35,191 nucleotides of DNA from Actinoallomurus spadix (GTDB lineage: Bacteria > Actinomycetota > Actinomycetes > Streptosporangiales > Streptosporangiaceae). How positions within the stretch are numbered: the first letter of the stretch is position 1; each line of letters begins with the position of its first letter. The stretch is taken from the NCBI RefSeq assembly GCF_024055725.1, contig NZ_JAMXMX010000044.1:1-35191 (forward strand), written 5' to 3'. The notes under the pieces were generated by a model. The model was not told the origin of the DNA. It made no database searches and worked only from the letters and a program-made list of their open reading frames with translations. Below, piece after piece: positions 5,372 through 28,083 of this stretch. Both the position numbers and the translations under genes were made by a program.

Positions 5372-6889
<1,518 letters not shown>

Positions 6890-6974: not shown

Positions 6975-8681
6975 GTGAAAGCCGTATCCCTCGGACCGGC
7001 CTACCGCGCGCAGGCCGTGCGGAACCTGGCGGAAGGCGAGTTCGACGTGCTGATCGTGGGCGGCGGAGTCGTGGGCGCCGGGGCGGCGCTCGACGCCGTG
7101 TCGCGCGGCCTGTCCGTCGCGCTGGTCGAGGCCGCGGACTGGGCGGCCGGGACGTCCAGCCGGTCCAGCAAGCTCATCCACGGCGGCCTGCGCTACCTGG
7201 AGCAGCGCGACTTCGGTCTCGTACGGGAGGCGCTGCGCGAACGCGGCCTCCTGCTGAACCGCCTCGCGCCCCACCTCGTACGCCCGGTGCCGTTCCTCTA
7301 CCCGCTCACCCACCGCATGTGGGAGCGCTTCTACGTCGGCGCCGGCGTCGGCCTGTACGACACGATGGGCGGCGCCCGGTCGATGCCGCGCCACCGCCAC
7401 CTGAGCCACCGCGGCGCCCTGAAGATCGCCCCGGCGCTGCGCGGCGACACGTTCGTCGGCGCGATCCAGTACTTCGACGCGCAGGTCGACGACGCGCGGT
7501 TCACGCTGACGCTGGCCCGGACGGCCGCCGCCTACGGCGCGTCCGTGCTGACCCGGGCCCGCGCCGTCGGGTTCCTCCGCGAGGCGGACCGCGTCATCGG
7601 GGCACGGGTCCTCGACCTGGAGAACGACCGGGAGCTGACCGTCCGGGCCCGGCACGTGATCAACGCGACCGGCGTGTGGACCGACGAGGCCGGCCGGCTC
7701 GCGCACGCGCGCGGCGGTCCGCACGTGACCGCGTCCAAGGGCGTGCATCTGCTGGTCCCGCGCGACCGGATCCGGCTGGACACCGGCCTGATCCTGCGCA
7801 CGGAGAAGAGCGTGCTGTTCGTCATCCCGTGGGGCCGGCACTGGATCATCGGCACCACCGACACCCCCTATGACCTGGACAAGGAGGAGCCGGCCGCCAG
7901 CCAGGCCGACGTGGAGTACATCCTCGAGCACGTCAACGCGGTGCTGCGCACCCCGATCGTCCCCGAGGACATCGAGGGCGTGTACGCCGGCCTGCGCCCC
8001 CTGCTGTCCGGCGGGGCCGACGACACCACCAAGCTGTCCCGCGAGCACACGGTCGCCCAGCCGGTCCCGGGGCTCACCGTGATCGCCGGCGGCAAGTTCA
8101 CGACCTACCGGGTGATGGCGAAGGACGCCGTCGACGCGGCGGCCGAGGACCTGCCCACGACCGTCCCCGCCTCCGTCACCGACCGGGTACCGCTGATCGG
8201 CGCCGTCGGGTACGAGGTCCTGTGGAACGAGCGGCACCGGCTCGCCCGGCGCAGCGGCCTGCACGTCGCCCGCGTCGAGCACCTGCTGAAGCGGTACGGC
8301 TCGTGCGTCGACGAGCTGCTGGGACTGATCGAGAAGGATCCCTCCCTCGGCGAGCCGCTCGGCGCCGCCCGCGACTACCTGAAGGCCGAGGCCGTGTACG
8401 CCGCGTCGCATGAGGGGGCGCTGCACGTCGAGGACATCCTGCGCCGCCGTACCCGCGCCGCGATCGAGGAGTGGGACCAGGGCTCCGCCGCCGCGGCCGA
8501 GGTCGCCGCGCTCGTCGCGCCGGTGCTGGGCTGGGACGACGAGACGGTGAAGCGCGAGACCGAGCACTACGTGCGCCAGGTCGAGGCCGAGCGGCAGGCG
8601 CGCCGTGAGGCGGACGACGCCGCCGCGGCCGCCGCCCGCGGCCGGGCGCCGAGCCTGTTCGCCGAGCGGGCCGCCTCCTGA
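6975..8681 (+). CDS. glpD: Glycerol-3-phosphate dehydrogenase (FAD-dependent)
   Basis: A 568-aa aerobic-type GlpD that oxidises sn-glycerol 3-phosphate to dihydroxyacetone phosphate at the membrane, passing electrons to quinone. The N-terminal FAD-binding motif is VLIVGGGVVGAGAALDA. Typical GlpD blocks follow: GTSSRSSKLIHGGLRYLEQ, INATGVWTDE, FVIPWGRHWIIGTTDTPY and the C-terminal helical cap domain. The GTG at 6975 is chosen because GGAGGAGA (6959-6966) is placed correctly before it; a reading from 6915 adds 20 residues of non-family sequence. It is the last gene of glpF-glpK-glpD, 85 nt after glpK. A strong hairpin after it ends the operon. The C-terminus carries an Ala/Arg-rich low-complexity tail. 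Confidence 0.94.
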   Translation: MKAVSLGPAYRAQAVRNLAEGEFDVLIVGGGVVGAGAALDAVSRGLSVALVEAADWAAGTSSRSSKLIHGGLRYLEQRDFGLVREALRERGLLLNRLAPHLVRPVPFLYPLTHRMWERFYVGAGVGLYDTMGGARSMPRHRHLSHRGALKIAPALRGDTFVGAIQYFDAQVDDARFTLTLARTAAAYGASVLTRARAVGFLREADRVIGARVLDLENDRELTVRARHVINATGVWTDEAGRLAHARGGPHVTASKGVHLLVPRDRIRLDTGLILRTEKSVLFVIPWGRHWIIGTTDTPYDLDKEEPAASQADVEYILEHVNAVLRTPIVPEDIEGVYAGLRPLLSGGADDTTKLSREHTVAQPVPGLTVIAGGKFTTYRVMAKDAVDAAAEDLPTTVPASVTDRVPLIGAVGYEVLWNERHRLARRSGLHVARVEHLLKRYGSCVDELLGLIEKDPSLGEPLGAARDYLKAEAVYAASHEGALHVEDILRRRTRAAIEEWDQGSAAAAEVAALVAPVLGWDDETVKRETEHYVRQVEAERQARREADDAAAAAARGRAPSLFAERAAS

Positions 8682-8713
8682 CCGGGTCCCGCGCGGACCA
8701 CCGCGCCGATCAC

Positions 8714-8745
8714 GCGGGCGGGGTGCCAGGGGCCACCCCGCCCGC
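8714..8745. terminator. Bidirectional terminator between glpD and the permease gene
   Basis: A perfect 12-bp stem (GCGGGCGGGGTG at 8714-8725 with CACCCCGCCCGC at 8734-8745) and an 8-nt loop lie between two convergent genes. The rest of the 138-nt gap shows no other feature. There is no T tract, so it is of the hairpin-only type common in actinobacteria. Confidence 0.75.
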
Positions 8746-8819
8746 CCGTACGTCCGCGACGGCCGGCCGCCGGCCCCCGCCGCCCGCGGAGCGGGGCGGG
8801 CGCCGGCGATCCTCCTCGG

Positions 8820-10235
8820 TCAGGCCGTCGCCGTCCGGGCGGCGACCGGGCGCATCCAGGCGTAGTACAGCGCGGAGGCGACGATGAGGCCGATGATCCA
8901 GGAGATGTCGGCGCCGCCCAGGTGCTTCACGAACGGGCCGGTGTAGAAGGTCGAGCTCACGAACGGCACCTCCACCAGGACGCCGATCGCGTAGGCGCCG
9001 ATGGTCCGCCAGTTAAACCCGCCGTACACGCCGTCCGGGCGGAAGATCGCGTCGATGTCGTACCGCTCCTTGCGGACGAAGTAGAAGTCGACGAGGTTGA
9101 TCGCCGTCCACGGGATCAGGAAGTACGCCAGGAACAGGATAAAATTCTCGAAGTTGTGCAGGAAGTCGGCGCTGGCGGCGAGCGCGACGATCGTCCCGAC
9201 GAGGGCGGCCACGACGACGAACCCGAGACGGACGCCGCCGTTCATCCGCATCGGCCGCAGCGCCGTCAGCGTCGTCGCCGCCGACATGAACATGCCGTAG
9301 AGGTTCAGCACGTTCACCGCGATGACGCCCAGCACGATGATCAGCGAGAACGCCCAGTGCGGGCGGCCCAGGCCCACCACGAACGACACCGACCCGCCCT
9401 CGAACGACTTGGCCGCCACGGCGGCGCAGACGCTGCCGAACGCCATCATCCAGACGGTGCCGATCACGCTGCCGGCGTACGTCCACCAGAACGCCGCCCG
9501 CACCGACGTGGTCTCCGGCAGGTAGCGGGAGTAGTCGGCGACGTACGGCGCGTACGTGATCTGCCAGGTCGCCGCGATCGCCATGACGAGGAGGAACGTG
9601 CCCGCCCCGACGTGCCCCGAGTGCCACACGCGGCCCACGTGGTGGCCGGTCAGCAGCCGGTAGGTCAGGTAGAGGAAACCGATCGCGGCGATGAGGCTGA
9701 TCCACCGCTCGTACTGGTGGATCAGCCGGTACCCGTACGCGGCGAGGACCGTGCAGACCGCCGACACGATGATCGTGGCCGGCGTCCGGCCGATCCCCCA
9801 CCAGCCGGCGAGCGCGGACCCGCCGAGCACCGCGCTGGTCGCGAAGAACCCGACGTACATCAGCACGACGAGCAGCAGCGGCAGGATCGCGCCGTAGAAG
9901 CCGAACTGGGCCCGGCTCTGGATCATCTGCGGGATCCCGAGCTTCGGCCCCTGCGCCGAGTGCAGCGCCATGAAGATCGCGCCGAGCAGGTTGCCGAGGA
10001 CGAGCGCGACGATCGCCCAGGGCAACGGCAGCCCGAGGATCACTCCCAGCGCCCCCGTGACCGCCGTGGTCACCTGCATGTTCGCGCCGAACCACACGGT
10101 GAACAGGCTCCGCACCGACCCGTGCCGCTCCTCGGGCGGGACGAAGTCGATGGATCGCCGCTCGACTCCGAGCGCACCACCGTCCGCCTGCCCGCCGGCG
10201 ACCCGCGAGCCGCCGCTGACCTCCTGTTTTGCCAT
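8820..10235 (-). CDS. NCS1-family purine/pyrimidine permease
   Basis: A 471-aa integral membrane transporter of the nucleobase:cation symporter-1 family, with about 12 hydrophobic segments. The N-terminal cytosolic stretch SIDFVPPEERHGSVRSLF and the first helix with FTVWFGANMQ are typical of the purine-cytosine permease group. The motif GPKLGIPQMIQSRAQFGFYG is the conserved helix 2-3 region. Substrates are likely cytosine, purines or a related vitamin precursor; the exact one cannot be read. The ATG at 10235 follows GAGGG with 8-nt spacing and gives the family N-terminus; a longer reading to 10277 has no support. It is divergent from the sensor-phosphatase gene with 145 nt between them, including a 16-bp palindrome that may regulate either gene. 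Confidence 0.88.
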   Translation of the reverse strand: MAKQEVSGGSRVAGGQADGGALGVERRSIDFVPPEERHGSVRSLFTVWFGANMQVTTAVTGALGVILGLPLPWAIVALVLGNLLGAIFMALHSAQGPKLGIPQMIQSRAQFGFYGAILPLLLVVLMYVGFFATSAVLGGSALAGWWGIGRTPATIIVSAVCTVLAAYGYRLIHQYERWISLIAAIGFLYLTYRLLTGHHVGRVWHSGHVGAGTFLLVMAIAATWQITYAPYVADYSRYLPETTSVRAAFWWTYAGSVIGTVWMMAFGSVCAAVAAKSFEGGSVSFVVGLGRPHWAFSLIIVLGVIAVNVLNLYGMFMSAATTLTALRPMRMNGGVRLGFVVVAALVGTIVALAASADFLHNFENFILFLAYFLIPWTAINLVDFYFVRKERYDIDAIFRPDGVYGGFNWRTIGAYAIGVLVEVPFVSSTFYTGPFVKHLGGADISWIIGLIVASALYYAWMRPVAARTATA

Positions 10236-18917: not shown

Positions 18918-20222
18918 TCAGGGGAGGGCGCGGGCGGCGGTCAGCGCCTCGGCCAGCACGTCGCGTACGGGACGGCCGGTGCGCTCGGCGGCGGCCCGGG
19001 CATCGTCGTACTCCGCCTGCGCGGTCACGACCCTGCCTCCGAGCAGGCCGCGCTTGACCGCGACCACCGCTCCCCCGGCCACGGTCACCGCGACCTGGTC
19101 GCGGTGCAGCGAGCGCCGCTCCACCGAGGACACCCGGACGCCGAGGGTGGTCGTCTGCTCGAAGACGACGCGGCACACGGCGTCGAGCCGGTCCGGCGGC
19201 ACGAGGACGCTCAGCACCTGACCGGGCCGGCCCTTGCGCATCAGCGCGGGGGCGCACCAGGCGTCGGCGGCCCCGGCGGAGCGCAGCGCCTCCAGCACGT
19301 CCGGCCAGAGCCGTGGGTCCAGGTCGTCCACGGTCGTGTCGACGCGCCGCATCTCCGCCGTCGCCCAGCCGGAGGCGCCGGCGGACTCCCCGATCAGTAC
19401 GCGCAGGACGTTCGGGTGACCCTCGGGGTCGGCGCGGCCGGCGCCGGTTCCGGTGGCGCGCGGCACGCAGTCCGGTGCGGGGCCCCAGCCGGTGGCCAGT
19501 GTGGCGAGCAGCGCGGCGCCGGTCGGGGTGCACAGCTCCATCGCGGCGGGGTGCGCGCGCAGCGGAGCACCGGCCTCGGTGAGCAGCTCCAGGACGGCGG
19601 GCACCGGGACGGGCAGCGGCCCGTGGGCCGCGCGGACCGTTCCGGACCCCGCCGCGACCGGCGAGACCACGCGGGCCGCGGACCCGAGCAGGCCGAGGTC
19701 GTGCAGGGCGAGCGCGCAGCCGGTGACGTCGGCGATCGCGTCCAGGGCGCCGACCTCGTGGAAGTGGATCTCCGAGACGGCCACGCCGTGCACCCGCGCC
19801 TCGGCGCGGGCGAGCCGCTCGAACACGGCGAGCGCGAACTCCCGTGCCTCGTCCGGGAGCGTGGCGGCGGTGAGGATCGCGGTGACGTCGGCGAGGTTCC
19901 GCGAGACGTCGCTGCGCGGCGCCCGTACGTCGGCGTGCAGGGCACGAAGCCCGTGCCGGCGCACCTGGGTCACCTCGACGTCGATGGGCTCGACGGCGAG
20001 CCCGCGCAGGCCGGCGCGCACGGCCTCCGGGTCGGCGCCGGCGTCCAGGAGCGCGGCGAGCAGCATGTCACCGGCCGCGCCGTTGCCCGCGTCCACCCAC
20101 AGCGTCCGCGCCGGGCGCGTTCCCCCGGAAGAGCCCACCGGCTCCCCCAGAGAGCCCACCGGTTCCCCGGAGGGGCTCACCGGCTCCCCGGATGAGTGCA
20201 CGTGCGCCTCGGAAGGGTTCAC
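18918..20222 (-). CDS. larC: LarC, nickel insertase for the NPN cofactor
   Basis: A 434-aa LarC/DUF111 protein, a CTP-dependent cyclometallase that inserts nickel into the pyridinium-dithiocarboxylate nucleotide. The core begins at TLWVDAGNGAAGDMLLAALL and includes EIHFHEVGALDAIADVTG, ELCTPTGAALLATLA and a C-terminal domain with RKGRPGQVLSVL. It is one continuous frame, unlike Lactiplantibacillus plantarum larC, which is made by a ribosomal frameshift. The GTG at 20222 overlaps the larB stop in a 4-nt GTGA junction, which sets the start. About 35 residues precede the family core; they come largely from 21-bp tandem repeats and look like a spacer. Confidence 0.92.
   Translation of the reverse strand: MNPSEAHVHSSGEPVSPSGEPVGSLGEPVGSSGGTRPARTLWVDAGNGAAGDMLLAALLDAGADPEAVRAGLRGLAVEPIDVEVTQVRRHGLRALHADVRAPRSDVSRNLADVTAILTAATLPDEAREFALAVFERLARAEARVHGVAVSEIHFHEVGALDAIADVTGCALALHDLGLLGSAARVVSPVAAGSGTVRAAHGPLPVPVPAVLELLTEAGAPLRAHPAAMELCTPTGAALLATLATGWGPAPDCVPRATGTGAGRADPEGHPNVLRVLIGESAGASGWATAEMRRVDTTVDDLDPRLWPDVLEALRSAGAADAWCAPALMRKGRPGQVLSVLVPPDRLDAVCRVVFEQTTTLGVRVSSVERRSLHRDQVAVTVAGGAVVAVKRGLLGGRVVTAQAEYDDARAAAERTGRPVRDVLAEALTAARALP
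20131..20193 (-). repeat. 21-bp tandem repeats encoding the LarC N-terminal extension
   Basis: Three adjacent 21-bp units (20131-20151, 20152-20172, 20173-20193) share the core CACCGG(C/T)TCCCC and encode a repeated Gly-Glu-Pro-Val-Gly-Ser-type heptapeptide near the LarC start. A fourth stretch (20194-20214) looks like a decayed unit. The unit length keeps the reading frame. Confidence 0.82.
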
Positions 20223-20911
20223 GGGCGCGTCCGCGCGGTGCGGCGGGCGATGCGCGCGGCGGCGACACCCGCGCCGAAGCCGTTGTCGACGTTGACCGAC
20301 ACGATGCCGGGGGCACAGCTGTTGACCGTGGCCAGCCAGGCCGTGACACCCTCCATGTGCCAGCCGTAACCGACGCTCGTCGGCACCGCGATCAGCGGCG
20401 CGCCGACGAGCCCGCCGAGCACCGAGGGCAGGGCCGCCTCCATGCCCGCGATCGCCACGACGACGTCGGCCTCGGCGATCCGGTCGCGCTGGGCGAGGAG
20501 GCGGTGCAGGCCCGCCACGCCGACGTCCACGATCTCGTCGGGCTCGGCCCCGAACACCCGCACGGTGGTCGCGCACTCGCGGACGACGGGCAGGTCGGAC
20601 GTGCCCGCGGCGACGACGGCGACCGTCCCGCGCGTCTCGGCCGTGCCCAGCACCGCCGTACGGCCGACGGGGTCGACCTCGGCGTCCGGCAGCCGCTCCG
20701 CGCACAGCGCGATCGCCTCGTCCGACAGCCGCGTGGCGAGCACGGCGCGATCGGAGTGCGCCTCGTGCAGCGTGCGCAGCGCGGTGACGATCTGCTCGGG
20801 CGTCTTGCCCTGGCCGAACACCACCTCCGGGTCACCGGTCCGGGCGGCGCGGTCGACGTCGAGCCGCGCGAAGCCGAGATCGGCGACGCCGTCCGGCTGA
20901 GATACCGTCAT
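20219..20911 (-). CDS. larB: LarB, NPN cofactor biosynthesis carboxylase/hydrolase
   Basis: A 230-aa LarB that carboxylates the pyridinium ring of nicotinate adenine dinucleotide and releases AMP, the first step of NPN synthesis. The N-terminal block FARLDVDRAARTGDPEVVFG and the PurE-like C-terminal domain (VAIAGMEAALPSVLGGLVG, VPTSVGYG) are typical. The catalytic Cys is in NSCAPGIVSVNVDNGFGAG (C199). The ATG at 20911 has GAGGA six nt upstream. It is coupled to larC by the GTGA overlap and diverges from larE with only 27 nt between start codons, so promoters must overlap or lie inside the neighbouring gene. Confidence 0.93.
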   Translation of the reverse strand: MTVSQPDGVADLGFARLDVDRAARTGDPEVVFGQGKTPEQIVTALRTLHEAHSDRAVLATRLSDEAIALCAERLPDAEVDPVGRTAVLGTAETRGTVAVVAAGTSDLPVVRECATTVRVFGAEPDEIVDVGVAGLHRLLAQRDRIAEADVVVAIAGMEAALPSVLGGLVGAPLIAVPTSVGYGWHMEGVTAWLATVNSCAPGIVSVNVDNGFGAGVAAARIARRTARTRP

Positions 20912-20938
20912 GCGAGTTCCTCAACGGATCGGGGTTGC

Positions 20939-21766
20939 ATGGTGGACGTCGTGGTCCTCTCCGACTCACTGCTGACCGAGATGGCAGGCTACGGCAGAAC
21001 GCTGGTCGCGTTCTCCGGCGGCGTGGACTCCAGTGTCGTACTCGCCGCGGCGGCGCGCGCGCTCGGCCCCGAGCGGGTCGCGGCCGTCACGGCCGTGTCG
21101 CCGTCGCTGCCGGCCGCCGAACTCGACGCGGCCAGGCGGTTCTGCGCGGACCTGGGCGTGACGCATCACACGCCCGCCACCTCCGAACTGGAGGTGCCCG
21201 GCTACCGGGAGAACAGCCCGCAGCGCTGCTACTTCTGCAAGAGCGTCCTGCTCGACACCGCGAACGCTCTCGCCGACCATCTGGGCTACGCGACCATCAC
21301 GACCGGCACGAACGCCTCGGACGTCGTCGCCGGGTTCCGGCCCGGCATCCGCGCCGCCGCCGAGCGCGGCGCCCGTACGCCACTGGCCGACCTGGGCCTG
21401 GACAAGGACGCGGTGCGCGCCATCGCCCGGCACTGGGACCTGCCGATGTGGGACAAGCCGGCCGCGGCGTGCATGGCGAGCCGCGTCGCGTACGGCATCG
21501 AGGTGACCTCGGCGCGCCTGGCGCGGATCGAGCGGGCGGAGACGGCCGTGCGCGGGCTGTTCGGCGGGGCGGTCCGGGACCTGCGGGTCCGCGACCTCGG
21601 CGACGCCGTGCGCCTGGAGGTCGACCCCGACCTGGTCGACCGCGCCCGCGACGACGAGGCCGTGCACGCCGCGATCCGCGAGGCCGGGTTCGCCGCCGCG
21701 CCGATCCGCGTCGAGGTGTTCCGGTCCGGTTCGATGAACGACCGGCTCGCCGCCTCCGAACGCTGA
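20939..21766 (+). CDS. larE: LarE, sulfur transferase for the NPN cofactor
   Basis: A 275-aa LarE of the PP-loop ATPase family, which adenylates the LarB product and replaces its two carboxylate oxygens with sulfur. The PP-loop is TLVAFSGGVDSSVVL. The sacrificial Cys position is in KPAAACMASR (C178). In addition there is a CxxC in RCYFCK (C97, C100), giving the three-Cys set reported in LarE proteins that hold a [4Fe-4S] cluster and transfer sulfur catalytically instead of sacrificing their own Cys. The ATG at 20939 is used; GTG 20942 is possible. The ribosome binding site is weak (GGG, six nt upstream). Together with LarB and LarC this makes a full NPN pathway. Confidence 0.92.
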   Translation: MVDVVVLSDSLLTEMAGYGRTLVAFSGGVDSSVVLAAAARALGPERVAAVTAVSPSLPAAELDAARRFCADLGVTHHTPATSELEVPGYRENSPQRCYFCKSVLLDTANALADHLGYATITTGTNASDVVAGFRPGIRAAAERGARTPLADLGLDKDAVRAIARHWDLPMWDKPAAACMASRVAYGIEVTSARLARIERAETAVRGLFGGAVRDLRVRDLGDAVRLEVDPDLVDRARDDEAVHAAIREAGFAAAPIRVEVFRSGSMNDRLAASER

Positions 21767-21839
21767 CCACGAACGGGCCCGCGGGCCACCCGGCGGTGAG
21801 ATGTGCGAGACATGAACGACGGGTGACGCGTCCGGCCGT

Positions 21840-21867
21840 TTGTGGAGTGTCCATTAACCGTTAGGGT
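21840..21867 (+). promoter_or_regulatory. Candidate promoter of the SDR-ADH-LarA-like-PlsC operon
   Basis: TTGTGG (21840-21845), a 16-bp spacer and TAGGGT (21862-21867) lie about 57 bp upstream of the first gene of the operon. The surrounding bases are locally AT-richer (CCATTAACCGTTAGGG). The -35 box is imperfect. Confidence 0.45.
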
Positions 21868-21924
21868 TTCCCTGTCAGATCGCGGCCGGGACGGCTCATG
21901 CCCACGATCGGAGAAGAACAGCGG

Positions 21925-24210
21925 ATGACGCCAGACCGACCTCACGAGTTCCCGTCCCTGGGTGACTCCCACATCCTGCTGACCGGTGCCACCGGCTTCC
22001 TCGGGCAGGCGACCCTGGAGAAGCTGCTGTCGGCGCATCCGGGCGTGCGCGTCTCGGTGCTGATCCGGCCGCGTGGCGGCACGTCCGCGCAGCGCCGGTT
22101 CGACGGCCTGCTGCGCAAGCCCGTCTTCCGCACGATGCGGGAGCGGATCGGCGAGGACGAGCTGCGGCGCATCGCGGCCGAGCGGGTCGACGTCATCGAG
22201 GGCGACCTCGGCGAGGTCACCCTCCCCTCCGACATCGACGTGGTCATCCACGGCGCGTCCACGGTGTCCTTCGACCCGCCGATCGACGAGGCGTTCCGCA
22301 CGAACGTCTCCGGCGTCGTGACGCTGTACGAGGCGCTGCACAAGGCCGGTGCGGACCCGCACGTGGTGCATGTGTCCACCGCGTACGTCGCGGGTGTCCG
22401 CAAGGGCGTCGTGCCGGAGGCCCGGCTCGACCACGGCGTCGACTGGCGCACCGAGCTGGCCGAGGCCCTCGCGGCCCACGCCGACGTCGAGCGCGACTCG
22501 CGGCGCCCGGAGGTGCTGCGCAAGTCGATGGCGCGGGCGCAGGGCGAGCACCGCAAGGCCGGCCCGCAGTCGGTGGTGGCGGCCGCCGAGGAGGCGCGGC
22601 AGGCGTGGGTCGGCGAGCGCCTCGTCGACTACGGCCGGGCGCGGGCGCAGAGCCTCGGCTGGCCGGACGTCTACACCTTCACCAAGGCGCTCGGCGAGCG
22701 CGCCGCCGAGGAGCTGTGGGGCGAGCGGCGGCTGTCCATCGTCCGCCCGGCGATCGTCGAGAGCTCGCTGCGCCACCCGTACCCCGGCTGGATCGACGGC
22801 TACAAGATGGCCGACCCGCTGATCATCGCGTACGGCCGGGGCGTCCTGCCGGAGTTCCCCGGCCTGCCCGACAGCGTCGTCGACATCATCCCGGTCGACC
22901 TGGTCGTCAACGCCACGATCGCGGTCGCGGCCACGCCGCCCGAGCGCGGCACCCCCGGCTACTTCCACGTCGGCTCCGGCTCGCGCAACCCGCTGTCCTT
23001 CCGCGGCCTGTACGAGAACGTCCGCGACTACTTCCGGCGGCACCCGATGCCGGCCGGCGAGCGCGGCCACATCCGCGTCCCGCAGTGGCGGTTCCCCGGC
23101 AGTCGTCAGGTCGAGATGATGCTGAGCGGCAGCGAGCGGGCCACCTCCGCGGCCGAGCGCGCGCTGCTGCGGCTGCCCGCCTCCGCCAAGACCCGCGAGT
23201 GGATGACCGCGGTGCACCGGCAGCAGACGAACCTCGACTTCCTGCGCCGCTACTCCGACCTGTACCAGGCGTACACCAAGGCCGAGGTCATCTACGACGA
23301 CAGCCGCACGCACGCGCTGCACGAGACCGTGCCGGCCGACCGGATCGACGAGCACGGCTTCGACCCGTCGGTCATCGACTGGGAGCACTACCTGCAGGAG
23401 GTGCACTCCCCCAGCGTCACCGAGCTGATGCGCGGCTTCTCCCGTGGCCGCGGCGGCGGCCGCAAGAGCGCCGACCCGGTGCTGCCCGAGCGCACCGACG
23501 TGGCCGCCGTGTTCGACCTCGAGGGCACGATCATCGCCTCGAACCTCATCGAGTCCTACCTGTGGGCCCGGCTGTCGTCCATGCCGCGCTCGCAGTGGAG
23601 CGGCGAGCTCGCCGACCTCGCCCGCTCGCTCCCCCGCTACCTGCGCGCCGAGCGGCGCGACCGCGGCGACTTCGTCCGGGCGTTCCTGCGGCGCTACGAG
23701 GGCGCCGACATCGCCGAGCTGCGCGCGCTCGTCAAGGACGTCCTCGGCGAGGCGGTGCTGCAGCGGGTCATGCCGGAGGCCGTCCGCAGGATCCGGGCGC
23801 ACCGCGCCGCCGGGCACAAGACGATCCTCATCACCGGCACGATCGACGTGTTCGTCGAGCCGCTGTCCACGCTGTTCGACGAGGTCGTCGCCAGCCGCAT
23901 GCACGAGCGCGACGGCAGGCTGACCGGCTACCTCGACACGCCCCCGCTGGTGGACGAGGCGCGGGCCGCGTGGCTGCGCCGCCACGCCGCCGACACCGGC
24001 CTGGACCTGTCACAGTCCTACGCCTACGCGGACAGCTACTCCGACCGGCCGCTGCTGGAGGCCGTCGGCAACCCCAACGCGGTCAATCCGGACCCCTCGC
24101 TGTACCGCCATGCCAAGCGCAAGCACTGGCGCATCCAAGAGTGGGGCGCCCATACCCGTGGACGGGGCGACGTGCTGATCGACACCGTGGGAGCGAGGTC
24201 CGCCCGATGA
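21925..24210 (+). CDS. Fatty acyl-CoA-reductase-like SDR fused to a HAD-IB phosphatase domain
   Basis: A 761-aa two-part protein. Residues about 10-370 are an extended SDR of the acyl reductase type (male-sterility/NAD_binding_4): the nucleotide motif TGATGFLG (20-27), the active-site YTFTK (Y250, K254), and VHVSTAYVAG with a conserved Ser/Thr. Residues about 525-740 are a HAD phosphatase with motif I FDLEGTI (D531, with Glu533 in place of the usual second Asp), motif II ILITGTIDVF and motif IV YADSYSD followed by NPNAVNPD. Likely roles are reduction of an acyl thioester to aldehyde or alcohol and removal of a phosphate from a lipid. The ATG at 21925 has GGAGAAG upstream; ATG 21898 would add nine residues. 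It overlaps the alcohol dehydrogenase gene by an ATGA junction. Confidence 0.85.
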   Translation: MTPDRPHEFPSLGDSHILLTGATGFLGQATLEKLLSAHPGVRVSVLIRPRGGTSAQRRFDGLLRKPVFRTMRERIGEDELRRIAAERVDVIEGDLGEVTLPSDIDVVIHGASTVSFDPPIDEAFRTNVSGVVTLYEALHKAGADPHVVHVSTAYVAGVRKGVVPEARLDHGVDWRTELAEALAAHADVERDSRRPEVLRKSMARAQGEHRKAGPQSVVAAAEEARQAWVGERLVDYGRARAQSLGWPDVYTFTKALGERAAEELWGERRLSIVRPAIVESSLRHPYPGWIDGYKMADPLIIAYGRGVLPEFPGLPDSVVDIIPVDLVVNATIAVAATPPERGTPGYFHVGSGSRNPLSFRGLYENVRDYFRRHPMPAGERGHIRVPQWRFPGSRQVEMMLSGSERATSAAERALLRLPASAKTREWMTAVHRQQTNLDFLRRYSDLYQAYTKAEVIYDDSRTHALHETVPADRIDEHGFDPSVIDWEHYLQEVHSPSVTELMRGFSRGRGGGRKSADPVLPERTDVAAVFDLEGTIIASNLIESYLWARLSSMPRSQWSGELADLARSLPRYLRAERRDRGDFVRAFLRRYEGADIAELRALVKDVLGEAVLQRVMPEAVRRIRAHRAAGHKTILITGTIDVFVEPLSTLFDEVVASRMHERDGRLTGYLDTPPLVDEARAAWLRRHAADTGLDLSQSYAYADSYSDRPLLEAVGNPNAVNPDPSLYRHAKRKHWRIQEWGAHTRGRGDVLIDTVGARSAR

Positions 24211-25403
24211 TCCTCGCGCTCGAGTACCACCGCTCGCCGGGCCGGTTCGTGGCCGCCCGCGGCCTGACCTCCACCCGGATGGGGAGCCGGCTCAGCGGCA
24301 TGGTCGCCGGGAACGTCGCGCCGCTGCGCCTGGTCAACCGGCAGGCCCCCGAGCTGCCCGGTGACGGCTGGACCCGCGTCACGCCGATCCTGTCCGGCAT
24401 CTGCGGCTCGGACCTCAGCCTGCTCACCGGGCACTCCTCGCCGTACCTCTCGCCGATGACGTCCATGCCGTTCGTGCCCGGTCACGAGGTCGTCGGCCGG
24501 ACCATGGACGACCTGCCCGGCGTCCCGAAGGGCAGCCGCGTCGTCATCGACCCGGTCCTGTCGTGCGCCGTGCGGGGCATGGAGCCCTGCCGCTGGTGCG
24601 CCTCCGGACAGCAGAGCCGCTGCGACCACGTCACCGCCGGCCGCATCTCGGCGGGCATCCAGACCGGCACCTGCGCCGACACCGGCGGCGGCTGGAGCCG
24701 CCAGATGGTCGCGCACGCCAGCCAGCTGCACGTCGTGCCCGACGAACTGCCCGACGAGCGCGCGGTGCTCGCCGAGCCCCTCGCCTGCGCGGTCCACTCC
24801 GTACGCCGCGTGCCGATCGAGCCGAACTCCACGGCCGTGATCGTCGGCGCGGGCACGGTCGGGCTGCTGACGCTGATCGCGCTGCGGGAGCTGACCCAGG
24901 TCGGCGCGGTGTACGTCATCGCCAAGCACGGCCACCAGAAGGAGAAGGCCAAGGCGCTCGGCGCGACCGCCGTCATCGAGCCCCGCAAGGCCGTGCGCGC
25001 GCTGCGGCGCGTCACGACCGCGCGGATGCACACGCCGGAGATGGGCGCGGACTTCCTGCTCGGCGGCGTCGACACCGTCTTCGAGTGCACCGGCGGCGCG
25101 AGCGGGCTGGACACCTCCCTGCGGCTCGCCCGCGCGGGAGGTACCGTCGTGATGTCCGGCATGCCGTCCGGCGGCGTCGACCTGACGCCGCTGTGGTTCC
25201 GCGAGCTGGAGCTGGTCGGGGCGTACTGCTCCGGCGCCGACGGGGCCGACTTCGCCGACGCCCTCCGGCTCGCCGGCTCGGCTCCGCTGGACGGCTACGT
25301 CGGCACGACCTACCCTCTCGCCCGCTGGCGGGAGGCGCTGAACCACGCGGCCGACTCCGGGCGGCTGGGAAGCGTCAAAGTCGCCTTCGACCTGGCGCGC
25401 TAG
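24207..25403 (+). CDS. Zinc-dependent medium-chain alcohol dehydrogenase
   Basis: A 398-aa MDR oxidoreductase. Catalytic zinc ligands are Cys66 in GICGSD and His93-Glu94 in PGHEVVG, with the NAD(P)-binding motif VGAGTVG in the second half. Structural zinc cysteines are C120, C128, C131 and C139: the last three have the standard spacing, but the first lies five residues further upstream than usual, because of an insertion. It probably interconverts an alcohol and an aldehyde or ketone, which fits the neighbouring acyl reductase. It overlaps the upstream gene by 4 nt (ATGA), and a 74-nt gap separates it from the LarA-like gene. The substrate is not readable. Confidence 0.88.
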   Translation: MILALEYHRSPGRFVAARGLTSTRMGSRLSGMVAGNVAPLRLVNRQAPELPGDGWTRVTPILSGICGSDLSLLTGHSSPYLSPMTSMPFVPGHEVVGRTMDDLPGVPKGSRVVIDPVLSCAVRGMEPCRWCASGQQSRCDHVTAGRISAGIQTGTCADTGGGWSRQMVAHASQLHVVPDELPDERAVLAEPLACAVHSVRRVPIEPNSTAVIVGAGTVGLLTLIALRELTQVGAVYVIAKHGHQKEKAKALGATAVIEPRKAVRALRRVTTARMHTPEMGADFLLGGVDTVFECTGGASGLDTSLRLARAGGTVVMSGMPSGGVDLTPLWFRELELVGAYCSGADGADFADALRLAGSAPLDGYVGTTYPLARWREALNHAADSGRLGSVKVAFDLAR

Positions 25404-25477
25404 GACGTGTAGGCGAAATTGATGCACAAGGACCGGGAGGTAGGCCGGGTGCTGGTTGGTTTGGAAAGGAACTACGA

Positions 25478-27055
25478 GTGAGCAGACCAGGCTTCGTACT
25501 CGATGTGGATGAGCGGACGCCACCGCTCATCGTGCACCAGGGCGAGGGCTTCCGGCTGGAGCGGCTGCCGCTCGGGTCCAAGGTCATCTACCCGCCGGAC
25601 TCCCTGCCCGGCATCCGCGACGTCGACGCCACGATCCGGCACGCGCTGCTGAACCCGCACGGCACCGAACCGCTCCCGGAGCTCCTGCGCCCCGGCATGC
25701 GGCTCACGATCGTCTTCGACGACCTGTCGCTGCCGCTGCCGCAGATGCAGACCCCGGACGTGCGCCAGCGCATCATCGAGCAGGTCCTGGAGATGGCGGC
25801 GGCCAAGGGCGTCGACGACGTCGAGCTGATCGCCGCCAACGCCCTGCACCGCCGGATGACCCCGGCGGAGCTGCGGCGCACCGTCGGCGACCGGGTCTTC
25901 CGCGCGTTCTTCCCCGAGCACCTGAAGAACCACGACGCCGAGGACCAGGACAACCTGACCTACTTCGGCAAGACCCGCCACGGCGAGGACGTCGAGATCA
26001 ACCGGCGCGCCGCCGAGAGCGACCTGATCGTCTACGTCAACATCACGCTCACCGCGATGAGCGGCGGCGCGAAGTCCGTGTCGGTCGGCCTGGCGAGCTA
26101 CCGCAGCCTGCGGCACCACCACAACGTGCACACGCTGCGGCACTCCAACTCGTTCAACGACCCGCCGAACTCCGCGATGCACCACTCGTACGAGCGGATG
26201 AAGGGCCTGATCGACGAGCACGTCAAGGTCTTCACGATCGAGACGACGCTCAACAACGACACCTTCCCCTCCTCGATGGGCTTCCTGAACAAGCGCGAGT
26301 GGGAGTGGAACGTCCGCGACCAGGCGACCTACCTCGGGGTCAAGCGGGCCAACGAGCTGATGCCGAAGAAGACGCGGCGGCGCATCTGGCAGAACACCGC
26401 CGCGCCGTACGGCGTGACCGGCGTGCACGCCGGCCTGCAGTCCGAGGTGCACCCGCTGACGCTGAAGAACGTCCACCGGCAGCAGCGCACCGAGGTGAAC
26501 GGCCAGTCCGACATCGCGATCTACGGACTGCCGTACATCTGCCCGTACAACGTCAACTCGGTGATGAACCCGATCCTGGTGATGTCACTCGGGCTCGGCT
26601 ACTTCTTCAACCTGTACATGAACAAGCCGATCGTCCGGCAGGGCGGCGTGGCGATCTTCTACCACCCGGTGCCGAACGAGTTCCACCCGGTGCACCACCC
26701 GAGCTACATCGACTTCTTCGAGGAGATCCTCACCGAGAGCACCGACCCGGTGCTCCTGGAGACGAAGTACGAGGAGCAGTTCGCCACGGACCCGTGGTAC
26801 ATCCAGCTGTACCGCAACAGCTACGCCTACCACGGCGTCCACCCCTTCTACATGTGGTACTGGGGGGCGCACGCGCTGGAGCACCTCGGCGACGTCATCT
26901 TCGTCGGCGGCAACCGCAAGACCACCGCGCGGATGGGCTTCCGTTCTGCCAGCACCCTCGCCGACGCGCTGGAGATGGCCAAGGACACCGTCGGCGGCAG
27001 CCCGTCGATCTCCTACCTCCACGCCCCGCCGCTCGCTTTGGCGGACGTGCGATGA
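25478..27055 (+). CDS. Divergent LarA-family (nickel-pincer nucleotide dependent) protein
   Basis: A 525-aa protein, about 100 residues longer than lactate racemase LarA. It has the LarA/DUF2088 N-terminal region with FDDLSLPLP (D81-D82), NALHRRMTPAEL (H124), and MSGGAKSVSVG with K199, followed exactly 16 residues later by H215 in RHHHN. From memory of LarA these match D72, H108, the NPN-anchoring K184 and the Ni ligand H200. The partners of R75 and H174 appear to be Leu85 and Ile189 (or Thr190), so the lactate-racemase active site is not intact. The C-terminal half is rich in Tyr, His and Trp (YPICPYNV-like region, FYHPVPNEFHPVHHP). The GTG at 25478 has AAGGA seven nt upstream. Neighbours are lipid-type enzymes and larB/C/E. 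Confidence 0.82.
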   Translation: MSRPGFVLDVDERTPPLIVHQGEGFRLERLPLGSKVIYPPDSLPGIRDVDATIRHALLNPHGTEPLPELLRPGMRLTIVFDDLSLPLPQMQTPDVRQRIIEQVLEMAAAKGVDDVELIAANALHRRMTPAELRRTVGDRVFRAFFPEHLKNHDAEDQDNLTYFGKTRHGEDVEINRRAAESDLIVYVNITLTAMSGGAKSVSVGLASYRSLRHHHNVHTLRHSNSFNDPPNSAMHHSYERMKGLIDEHVKVFTIETTLNNDTFPSSMGFLNKREWEWNVRDQATYLGVKRANELMPKKTRRRIWQNTAAPYGVTGVHAGLQSEVHPLTLKNVHRQQRTEVNGQSDIAIYGLPYICPYNVNSVMNPILVMSLGLGYFFNLYMNKPIVRQGGVAIFYHPVPNEFHPVHHPSYIDFFEEILTESTDPVLLETKYEEQFATDPWYIQLYRNSYAYHGVHPFYMWYWGAHALEHLGDVIFVGGNRKTTARMGFRSASTLADALEMAKDTVGGSPSISYLHAPPLALADVR

Positions 27056-28020
27056 GCAGGAAATCGTCGAGCATCCGCAAGGAGCTCCGCCTGCTGCGGC
27101 ACGGGCGGGACTGGCGCGGGCGCTCCACGGTGCCCCGCTCGGCGGAGCCGCACGTCGTCGAGCCCGAGGAGAAGGTCTTCCCGACCGCCTGGGCGCGTAC
27201 GCCGGTCGCGGTCGCGGCCCGGTCCGTGCTGCGCAAGGGGCTGCTGAAGCCGGTCGCGTGGCGGCAGATCACCCCGGTCATCGAGGGCGCGGAGTACCTC
27301 GACGGCGTGCGCGGCCCGGTGGTGTTCGTGGCGAACCACTCCAGCCATCTGGACACCCCGCTGATCCTCGGCTCGCTGCCGGAGCGGTTCGCCAACCGCG
27401 TCGCCGTCGGCGCCGCGTCGGACTACTTCTTCGACGTACGCTGGCGCGCGACGCTGACGGCGGTGTTCTTCAACGCCTTCCCCGTCGAGCGGTACGGCTC
27501 GAAGCGGCTGCGCAGCCTGGCCATCGACCTGGTCGACGACGGGTGGAGCCTGCTGCTCTATCCGGAGGGCACCCGGTCGGAGGACGGCTGGATGAACCCC
27601 TTCAAGCTCGGCGCGGCGGTGCTGTGCGTCTCGAAGCGCGTCCCGTGCGTGCCGATCGCGATCCGGGGCTCGTACGCCGCGATGCCGCGCGGGCGCAACT
27701 GGCCGCAGCCGGGCAAGCCGCGTGTCACCGTCCGGTACGGCCGTCCCCTCGTTCCCGAGGAGGGTGAGGACGTCCGGGCGTTCCGCGCGCGGATGGCCAA
27801 GGCGGTCGCCGCGCTCGCCGCCGAAGAGGACCTGGGCTGGTACGACGCGCTGCGCGCCTCGGCCGACGACCGCCTCGAGATCCCGGGCGGCTCCCAGCCG
27901 ACCCGTCCCGGCGCGGTGCGCGAGGACGGCGACAAGCCGGGCACGGCCGCCGACTGGCGGCGGATCTGGGCCTCGACCGAACCCCTCACGAACCGCCGGC
28001 GCCGCGTCTGGCGCGCCTGA
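27052..28020 (+). CDS. PlsC-type lysophospholipid acyltransferase
   Basis: A 322-aa glycerolipid acyltransferase family protein. The catalytic HX4D motif is NHSSHLD (H96, D101), the acceptor-phosphate motif is YPEGTRS (E172-G173-T174-R175), and a later motif reads VPIAIRG. The N-terminal 60 residues are basic and amphipathic and may bind the membrane; there is no clear membrane helix. It would transfer an acyl group from acyl-CoA or acyl carrier to a lyso-lipid or an unusual alcohol. The ATG overlaps the LarA-like stop by 4 nt (ATGA), and the gene is closed by a strong terminator, so it is the last gene of the operon. The C-terminal tail is charged and disordered-looking. Confidence 0.88.
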   Translation: MSRKSSSIRKELRLLRHGRDWRGRSTVPRSAEPHVVEPEEKVFPTAWARTPVAVAARSVLRKGLLKPVAWRQITPVIEGAEYLDGVRGPVVFVANHSSHLDTPLILGSLPERFANRVAVGAASDYFFDVRWRATLTAVFFNAFPVERYGSKRLRSLAIDLVDDGWSLLLYPEGTRSEDGWMNPFKLGAAVLCVSKRVPCVPIAIRGSYAAMPRGRNWPQPGKPRVTVRYGRPLVPEEGEDVRAFRARMAKAVAALAAEEDLGWYDALRASADDRLEIPGGSQPTRPGAVREDGDKPGTAADWRRIWASTEPLTNRRRRVWRA

Positions 28021-28035
28021 CCTACGACACCGCCG

Positions 28036-28077
28036 AGCCCCGGGCCACGCCGTACGGCGTGGCCCGGGGCTTTTTTT
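28036..28077 (+). terminator. Rho-independent terminator of the LarA-like operon
   Basis: A perfect 15-bp stem (28037-28051 with 28056-28070; 16 with the flanking A-T pair) and a 4-nt loop are followed by seven T residues. This is the clearest intrinsic terminator in the window and an unusual form for actinobacteria. It also separates the operon from the AT-rich promoter at 28084. Confidence 0.93.
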
Positions 28078-28083
28078 CTCGGC

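Follow-up and report, generated by a model that had tools for sequence, protein, structure and literature searches.

What does a LarA-like protein, a likely client of the nickel-pincer nucleotide (NPN) cofactor, do in an operon of lipid type? The question is raised by a 35,191-nucleotide stretch of Actinoallomurus spadix DNA (contig NZ_JAMXMX010000044.1 of assembly GCF_024055725.1), here called the window. An earlier note made from its sequence had described larC and larB diverging from larE, followed by genes for a fatty acyl-CoA reductase fused to a HAD-type phosphatase (FAR-HAD), a zinc alcohol dehydrogenase (Zn-ADH), a LarA-family protein, and a PlsC-type acyltransferase. All seven genes are present, and the three lar products and the LarA-like protein score above the curated NCBIfam cut-offs (Table 1). 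The role of LarA homologues with a single catalytic histidine is an open question in print, as far as the accessible parts of the relevant reports go (PMC7583248, PMC12611868). The present locus narrows this question to a lipid-type pathway with defined partner activities and many bearers, in which natural decay ties the LarA-like protein, LarAH14, to NPN and to the Zn-ADH.

Active site and cofactor supply of LarAH14

The LarAH14 group was defined in 2020 by Desguin et al., who also tabulated its most frequent COG neighbours, among which those of the present operon may already figure (PMC7583248). The window protein belongs to the same family, group 14 of the LarA superfamily, and matches the NCBIfam model NF052592 (“LarAH14/15/16”) over its full length (profile positions 1 to 520 of 520, residues 6 to 525). 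It has a Lar_N domain and the two-domain LarA fold, and it is 93% identical to a protein of Actinoallomurus iriomotensis; at least 569 relatives were confirmed in one scan. We compared 142 loci, comprising the window, 61 loci from a draw of 296 Actinomycetota genomes (the phylum draw, in which 61 of the 71 other genomes with LarAH14 had their loci fetched), and 80 loci found by two peptide patterns. Merging six duplicates left 136 distinct loci.

NPN-site residues were assigned by alignment to solved LarA chains. Conservation was counted in 144 rows (138 distinct sequences; 5 rows LarAH15-like), 4 of 148 rows having been dropped as shorter than 480 residues and the four Frankia-like proteins described below standing outside the 144. 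K199, H215, and D82, which correspond to LarA Lys184 (covalent NPN), His200 (nickel ligand), and Asp72, are kept in every row. The second catalytic histidine, LarA His174, has no counterpart: its loop is about 3 to 4 residues shorter than in LarA and holds no histidine in any of the 144 rows. The position of Arg75, which in LarA binds the NPN phosphate and the substrate carboxylate, is taken by L, I, C, or V throughout. N188, near the position of His174, is kept in 143 of 144 rows, the loop there being shorter and the alignment gapped. One of the two search patterns includes His452 and His455, so the conservation of these two histidines stems partly from selection; K199, H124, H215, and Y357 lie outside the patterns.

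Because the second histidine and Arg75 are gone in all rows, 2-hydroxyacid racemisation by the LarA mechanism is unlikely. LarAH14 thus differs from lactate racemase LarA (5huq) and other 2-hydroxyacid racemases in lacking these two residues, in being about 90 residues longer, and in its lipid-type operon. A role as a simple lactate or malate racemase was rejected, as the needed residues are missing; of the two further Lar_N proteins in the window genome, one (L094) scores as a nickel-dependent lactate racemase (551.9 bits, cut-off 460). The single-histidine LarA-like proteins of Gatreddi et al. (2025; 9q2u/9q3k and 9q3j) are 28% identical to the window protein. As far as the available part of that report describes them, they have Asn where LarA has His174, within a loop that is longer; the Arg75 position is occupied by Lys, and their His306 aligns with Pro356 of the window protein. 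They adjoin carbohydrate genes (PMC12611868), whereas the neighbours of LarAH14 are of lipid type at nearly every locus with sufficient flank.

To learn from gene content whether NPN is supplied where LarAH14 occurs, we used the phylum draw and a class draw of 216 genomes; these draws share lineages, so Fisher values computed from the counts overstate independence. In the phylum draw, larC is present in 63 of 72 LarAH14 genomes versus 130 of 224 others. Two of the nine LarAH14 genomes without larC have larE above its cut-off and larB at E values of 1.9e-66 and 1.1e-68 (larB in single genomes of this draw was judged by best E value, and larE was searched in 24 genomes). In the class draw, larC is present in 28 of 29 LarAH14 genomes versus 35 of 187 others, and larB in 27 of 29 versus 30 of 187; a single LarAH14 genome lacks both, and three of the others are genomes with a fragmentary LarAH14, all with larB and larC. 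By these counts the operon is not widespread in genomes that lack larB, larC, and larE; a wide spread there is what the earlier note had named as refuting its proposal. Where LarAH14 is the only Lar_N protein of the genome, larC occurs in 34 of 40 cases (phylum draw) and in 21 of 22 (class draw; larB, 20 of 22), which leaves NPN in those genomes without another known client and speaks against an operon unrelated to NPN. The co-occurrence of the lar genes and the conserved NPN site together make it very probable, as read from sequence, that an ordinary LarAH14 uses NPN. In the flanks retrieved, which reached 10 kb at most and were often truncated, larB was found at 28 of the 80 pattern-found loci, up- or downstream and in varied orders and orientations, as if it had come to lie beside LarAH14 repeatedly.

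Several lar-type sequences departed from the usual form. PF01969 matches in four genomes (G342:C9, G356:C159, G305:C1, and G324:C30) span only the first 180 to 235 or so of 375 positions and may represent stand-alone LarC1-like proteins; G305 and G324 are genomes without a listed LarAH14. Three genomes of family f17 (G051, G075, and G226; loci L054, L047, and L050) give larC matches (E about 1e-44 to 1e-50) far weaker than those of most other genomes, suggestive of a divergent or split LarC, and have larE-larB-larC close behind PlsC. Among LarA-like proteins, a related group (L092, L093, and L096 to L100) scores about 419 to 540 bits, is 35 to 41% identical to the window protein, and has the same NPN residues in the five members counted; no lipid operon was found beside these genes, which are perhaps LarAH15. 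The third LarA-like protein of the window genome (L095; G000:C44:149000-167000, gene 8597-9871) is nearest to a hexonate-epimerase model (184.8 bits, below the cut-off of 500) and lies a few kilobases from genes that by eye resemble phosphoketolase and acetate kinase.

Conservation of the operon and decay of LarAH14 and ADH in Frankia-like genomes

At distinct loci with enough flank, LarAH14 has a same-strand FAR in 113 of 117 cases, HAD in 120 of 121, ADH in 125 of 129, and PlsC in 111 of 127. For three of the four FAR misses the gene position falls outside the sequence retrieved, and 15 of the 16 PlsC misses fall in Rubrobacter-like loci. ADH is missing at L066, L135, L136, and L102, the last in a genome with FAR-HAD on another contig; at L135 (Streptomyces altiplanensis) and L136 (Streptomyces sp. 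DH37), where no ADH lies between FAR-HAD and LarAH14, larE-larB-larC stand directly upstream. Catalytic motifs are conserved in all four partners: Tyr and Lys of the FAR YxxxK motif (113 of 114 each), HAD D540, D712, and D716 (114/114), the ADH zinc ligands C66 (123/124) and H93 (124/124), and PlsC HX4D (111/111) and PEGTR (PE, 111/111; G, 110/111). Four-base overlaps join FAR-HAD to ADH in 71 of 125 called pairs and LarAH14 to PlsC in 35 of 111.

Across the 296 genomes, 72 have LarAH14 and 78 the FAR-HAD fusion: 71 have both, 1 LarAH14 alone, 7 the fusion alone, and 217 neither. The contig of the sole LarAH14-only genome begins inside FAR-HAD, and four of the seven fusion-only genomes hold a fragmentary LarAH14. 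Recurrence of the four-gene order across Actinomycetota, together with this co-occurrence, rules out a chance neighbourhood. When neighbours were clustered over the loci, the four core genes were followed by larC (32), a TetR regulator (30), larE (25), larB (18), and then lineage-specific genes; no further shared pathway gene emerged beyond the core, lar, and TetR clusters.

One of the remaining clusters (cluster 10) is a diiron-like protein of about 270 to 300 residues in which EExxH-type motifs can be made out by eye; it is encoded close to the operon in 11 loci and is perhaps a relative of desaturases. For one member Pfam and NCBIfam gave no match, and the one similarity seen, to DesA2, was weak (E 0.13). 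At L110 its gene (5724-6530) overlaps the FAR-HAD start.

Similarity searches suggest a lipid link for the partners. The FAR half (residues 21 to 524) has as its best PDB match the fatty acyl-CoA reductase 7eoz (E 1.9e-51), and PlsC matches the 1-acyl-G3P acyltransferase 5kym (E 3.8e-16). The ADH matches 4ej6 (E 1.3e-24) and, among many dehydrogenases, the ketose reductase 1e3j (E 2.6e-20). Mixed ether/ester lipids are reported to dominate in Rubrobacterales, according to a title cited in PMC11150832. In ten Rubrobacter-like loci no PlsC was called, and a gene for PlsY directly precedes FAR-HAD (gaps of −11 to 30 bp, once 184). This PlsY is the only one in five of nine searched genomes (G011, G053, G076, G195, and G237), with further PlsY matches in G041, G087, G098, and G026. 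The abstract of the Rubrobacterales lipid paper reportedly mentions a 1-O-alkyl glycerol phosphate operon, which it calls putative.

A known parallel is the Myxococcus elb ether-lipid operon, which likewise has genes for a FAR-type reductase, a HAD phosphatase, an AGPAT-type acyltransferase, and oxidoreductases (PMC9131029). The window operon differs from elb in its FAR-HAD fusion and in having a zinc ADH as oxidoreductase. The elb operon additionally encodes acyl-CoA synthetase and ACP domains, NAD-dependent epimerase/dehydratase-type proteins, and one protein of unknown function, and the accessible part of the report mentions no NPN enzyme (PMC9131029). Pfam domains of the acyl-CoA synthetase, ACP, and ElbE types were absent from FAR-HAD, ADH, LarAH14, and PlsC of the window. 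An acyl-CoA ligase-like cluster, assigned by eye, occurs in 13 fetched loci, kilobases from LarAH14. The likenesses in FAR, PlsC, PlsY, elb, and Rubrobacterales are resemblances, not proof. The conserved FAR-HAD, ADH, and PlsC neighbours support the lipid-type operon that the earlier note had read from the window, and LarAH14 itself probably belongs to a lipid pathway, whose substrate and product would be lipids.

A natural experiment bears on the link between LarAH14, its cofactor, and the ADH. Four Frankia-like genomes of one genus carry a diverged, full-length LarAH that scores 541 to 624 bits, below the NF052592 cut-off. No larB, larC, or other Lar_N protein was found in them (larE was not searched). 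The order FAR-HAD, ADH, LarAH, PlsC is kept in three, the fourth ending at a contig edge before FAR-HAD. LarAH has lost K199 and H214 in all four, H124 in two, and H215 in one; the ADH, readable in three, has lost C66, H93, and the structural-zinc loop in each. The motifs of FAR (3/3) and PlsC (4/4) are intact, and HAD keeps its aspartates with T544 changed to Ala. In the tree, a long branch nested inside the Frankiaceae LarAH14 (12 rows, 100/100) carries the Frankia-like proteins, which marks the loss as derived.

Selection on the degenerate proteins is relaxed but not neutral: for LarAH, dN/dS is 0.15 to 0.37 (three pairs), where two Frankia pairs with intact proteins give 0.05 and 0.11; for ADH, it is 0.22 and 0.51, versus 0.18 and 0.17. 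Decay of LarAH14 and ADH together in genomes without larB and larC ties LarAH14 to NPN supply and marks LarAH14 and ADH as one redox module, within the scope of a single lineage. LarAH14 is therefore most likely an NPN user and a partner of the ADH, and the residual constraint hints that both proteins keep a noncatalytic role. The degenerate LarAH may be the same as group 16, left out of consideration by Desguin et al. because it lacks NPN residues, according to the part of their report available (PMC7583248).

Proposed reaction and alternatives

We lean towards an account in which LarAH14 uses NPN without being a 2-hydroxyacid racemase, and would carry out a transient oxidation or hydride shift on a glycerolipid intermediate in concert with ADH, FAR-HAD, and PlsC. 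In this account, His124 would take the proton of a substrate hydroxyl while the hydride passes to NPN, tethered on Lys199 with its nickel held by His215. Because the opposite face lacks a histidine of its own and a carboxylate would find no Arg75 to hold it, the hydride would return to the same face or go to a neighbouring carbon. In the first case, it would come back after another bond had changed. Such transient oxidation has a precedent in S-adenosylhomocysteine hydrolase. In the second case, a hydroxyaldehyde/hydroxyketone shift would result. The Zn-ADH could perform a linked NAD(P)H step, FAR could supply a fatty aldehyde or alcohol, HAD could remove a phosphate, and PlsC (PlsY in Rubrobacter-like genomes) could acylate, the likely product being a modified glycerolipid, possibly of alkyl-ether type.

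A more far-reaching version is tentative, and we think it on the whole improbable. LarAH14 and Zn-ADH would form the first NPN-dependent step of lipid biosynthesis, in which noninverting hydride borrowing lets a neighbouring bond on a glycerol-type backbone change. The step would fall within an aerobic pathway by which Actinomycetota make glycerolipids of alkyl-ether type or with some other modification, the unexplained Rubrobacter ether lipids included, with core Frankia as a natural double knockout keeping both dead enzymes as scaffold. Ether lipids in particular rank below the broader glycerolipid account, because FAR-HAD and PlsC persist in Frankia-like genomes that have no functional LarAH14. 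Were NPN chemistry of this kind to be confirmed, the reach of the cofactor would extend beyond hydroxyacid isomerisation to lipid synthesis, and a testable gene set would be at hand for actinobacterial lipids of obscure origin.

Several observations weigh against this account. Seven of the 72 LarAH14 genomes (G181, G213, G160, G106, G263, G084, and G294) have no larB, larC, or larE over the cut-off, although their LarAH14 keeps all NPN residues. They are 81 to 98% complete, and draft gaps may explain some of them; yet two belong to one genus, and completeness stands at 96% and 98% in two, which makes genuine exceptions possible. As the phylum draw shows, larC is also common without LarAH14, and in the window genome larBCE could in principle serve the two other Lar_N proteins. 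The operons at L066, L135, and L136 do without ADH. A purified Frankia LarAH14 was inactive in seven assays, according to Table 1 of the published study (PMC7583248). The operon persists in Frankia-like genomes without a working NPN site and with LarAH under purifying selection, so that LarAH14 may also have a noncatalytic role and its step may not be indispensable to FAR-HAD and PlsC. Finally, the spread of the operon is patchy: in the family to which the window belongs, all 18 genomes listed lack LarAH14 at E 1e-100, and the six-row clade that holds the window in the tree mixes four families. Transfer besides descent is therefore likely in places, and mostly vertical inheritance is not borne out.

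The earlier note had suggested hydride shuttling or epimerisation on a lipid precursor. Epimerisation, by which LarAH14 would invert a hydroxyl before acylation, is the weaker half and looks unlikely. In the accessible literature, the reported activities of the LarA family do invert C2 of hydroxyacids (PMC7583248, PMC11770544), and a one-histidine, one-way racemase has been proposed for the relatives 9q2u and 9q3j (PMC12611868). The shortened His174 loop and the uniform absence of the second histidine and Arg75 argue against inversion, and the decay of the ADH together with LarAH14 suggests linked redox steps over simple inversion.

The chances are small that LarAH14 and ADH serve mainly as scaffold or regulatory subunits of a FAR-HAD/acyltransferase complex, with NPN catalysis secondary or confined to a redox sensor. 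Such a role would fit the Frankia-like genomes, where both proteins stay full length under constraint (dN/dS of 0.15 to 0.51) after losing their metal and cofactor ligands. Against it stand the invariant NPN site of the 144 other relatives and the retention of larC in most genomes where LarAH14 is the only client, since a scaffold would not need NPN.

We give equally little weight to the idea that LarAH14 replaces alkylglycerone-phosphate synthase as a hydride-borrowing enzyme making the 1-O-alkyl glycerol bond of ether lipids. The shared FAR, HAD, and acyltransferase composition of the elb ether-lipid operon, the ether/ester lipids reported for Rubrobacterales, and the Rubrobacter-like genomes whose only PlsY lies in the operon speak for this assignment; the Frankia-like genomes, retaining FAR-HAD and PlsC beside a defunct LarAH14, speak against it. 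Least probable is a sugar or hydroxyacid route merely sharing a transcript with lipid genes, which the carbohydrate-gene neighbours of related single-histidine enzymes and the polyol- and ketose-dehydrogenase-like ADH would favour, but which the nearly obligate FAR-HAD link and the replacement of PlsC by another acyltransferase, PlsY, in Rubrobacter-like loci make highly doubtful.

For the favoured glycerolipid account, a literature search found no description of the operon or pathway, the sole-client evidence, or the joint decay, supplementary tables and the Rubrobacterales lipid paper lying outside its reach. The part of PMC7583248 that is accessible gives no pathway for LarAH14, and the present analysis adds the co-occurrence counts, the test of LarAH14 as sole client, and the decay in Frankia-like genomes. 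The earlier note's remark that no pathway with this gene set is described thus holds, as far as the search reached, for the pathway but not for the protein, whose group was already defined, with a Frankia member assayed, COG neighbours tabulated, and an NCBIfam model in existence.

Gene limits in the window

The host genome is 8.02 Mb in 71 contigs, of which the window is contig 38. Gene positions are given in Table 1.

Table 1. Features of the lar and lipid-type gene cluster, with window coordinates
Feature	Position	Strand	Assignment and evidence
larC	18918..20222	−	Single LarC1-LarC2 open reading frame, nickel insertion into NPN; PF01969 404.6 bits; TIGR00299 193.1 (cut-off 90); NF052512 LarC2 120.2 (cut-off 50)
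larB	20219..20911	−	Carboxylase/hydrolase of NPN synthesis; NF033503 252.4 bits (cut-off 175)
larE	20939..21766	+	Sulfur transferase of NPN synthesis, divergent from larBC; TIGR00268 278.7 bits (cut-off 150)
FAR-HAD	21898..24210	+	Fatty acyl-CoA reductase fused to HAD-IB phosphatase; NAD_binding_4 residues 28-340, E 4.9e-49; HAD 537-721, E 5.5e-35
Zn-ADH	24207..25403	+	Polyol/ketose-reductase-like medium-chain dehydrogenase/reductase; ADH_N + ADH_zinc_N (E 1.9e-16)
LarAH14	25478..27055	+	LarA superfamily, NPN site, one catalytic histidine; NF052592 918.5 bits (cut-off 740)
PlsC-type acyltransferase	27052..28020	+	PF01553 E 4.9e-16
Terminator-like inverted repeat and T-run	~28037..28078	+	3′ of PlsC, probable operon end; by eye

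The ATGA junctions attributed to the operon in the earlier note occur as 4-base overlaps at FAR-HAD/ADH and LarAH14/PlsC; ADH and LarAH14, in contrast, are separated by 74 bp. The GTG start of larC overlaps the larB stop by GTGA, and since larB and larC lie on the opposite strand, they are not on the same transcript as the operon. A tRNA-Arg call by ARAGORN (21301-21390, minus strand), antisense inside larE, was set aside as probably a false positive. FAR-HAD may instead start at an ATG at 21925, which has a better ribosome site.

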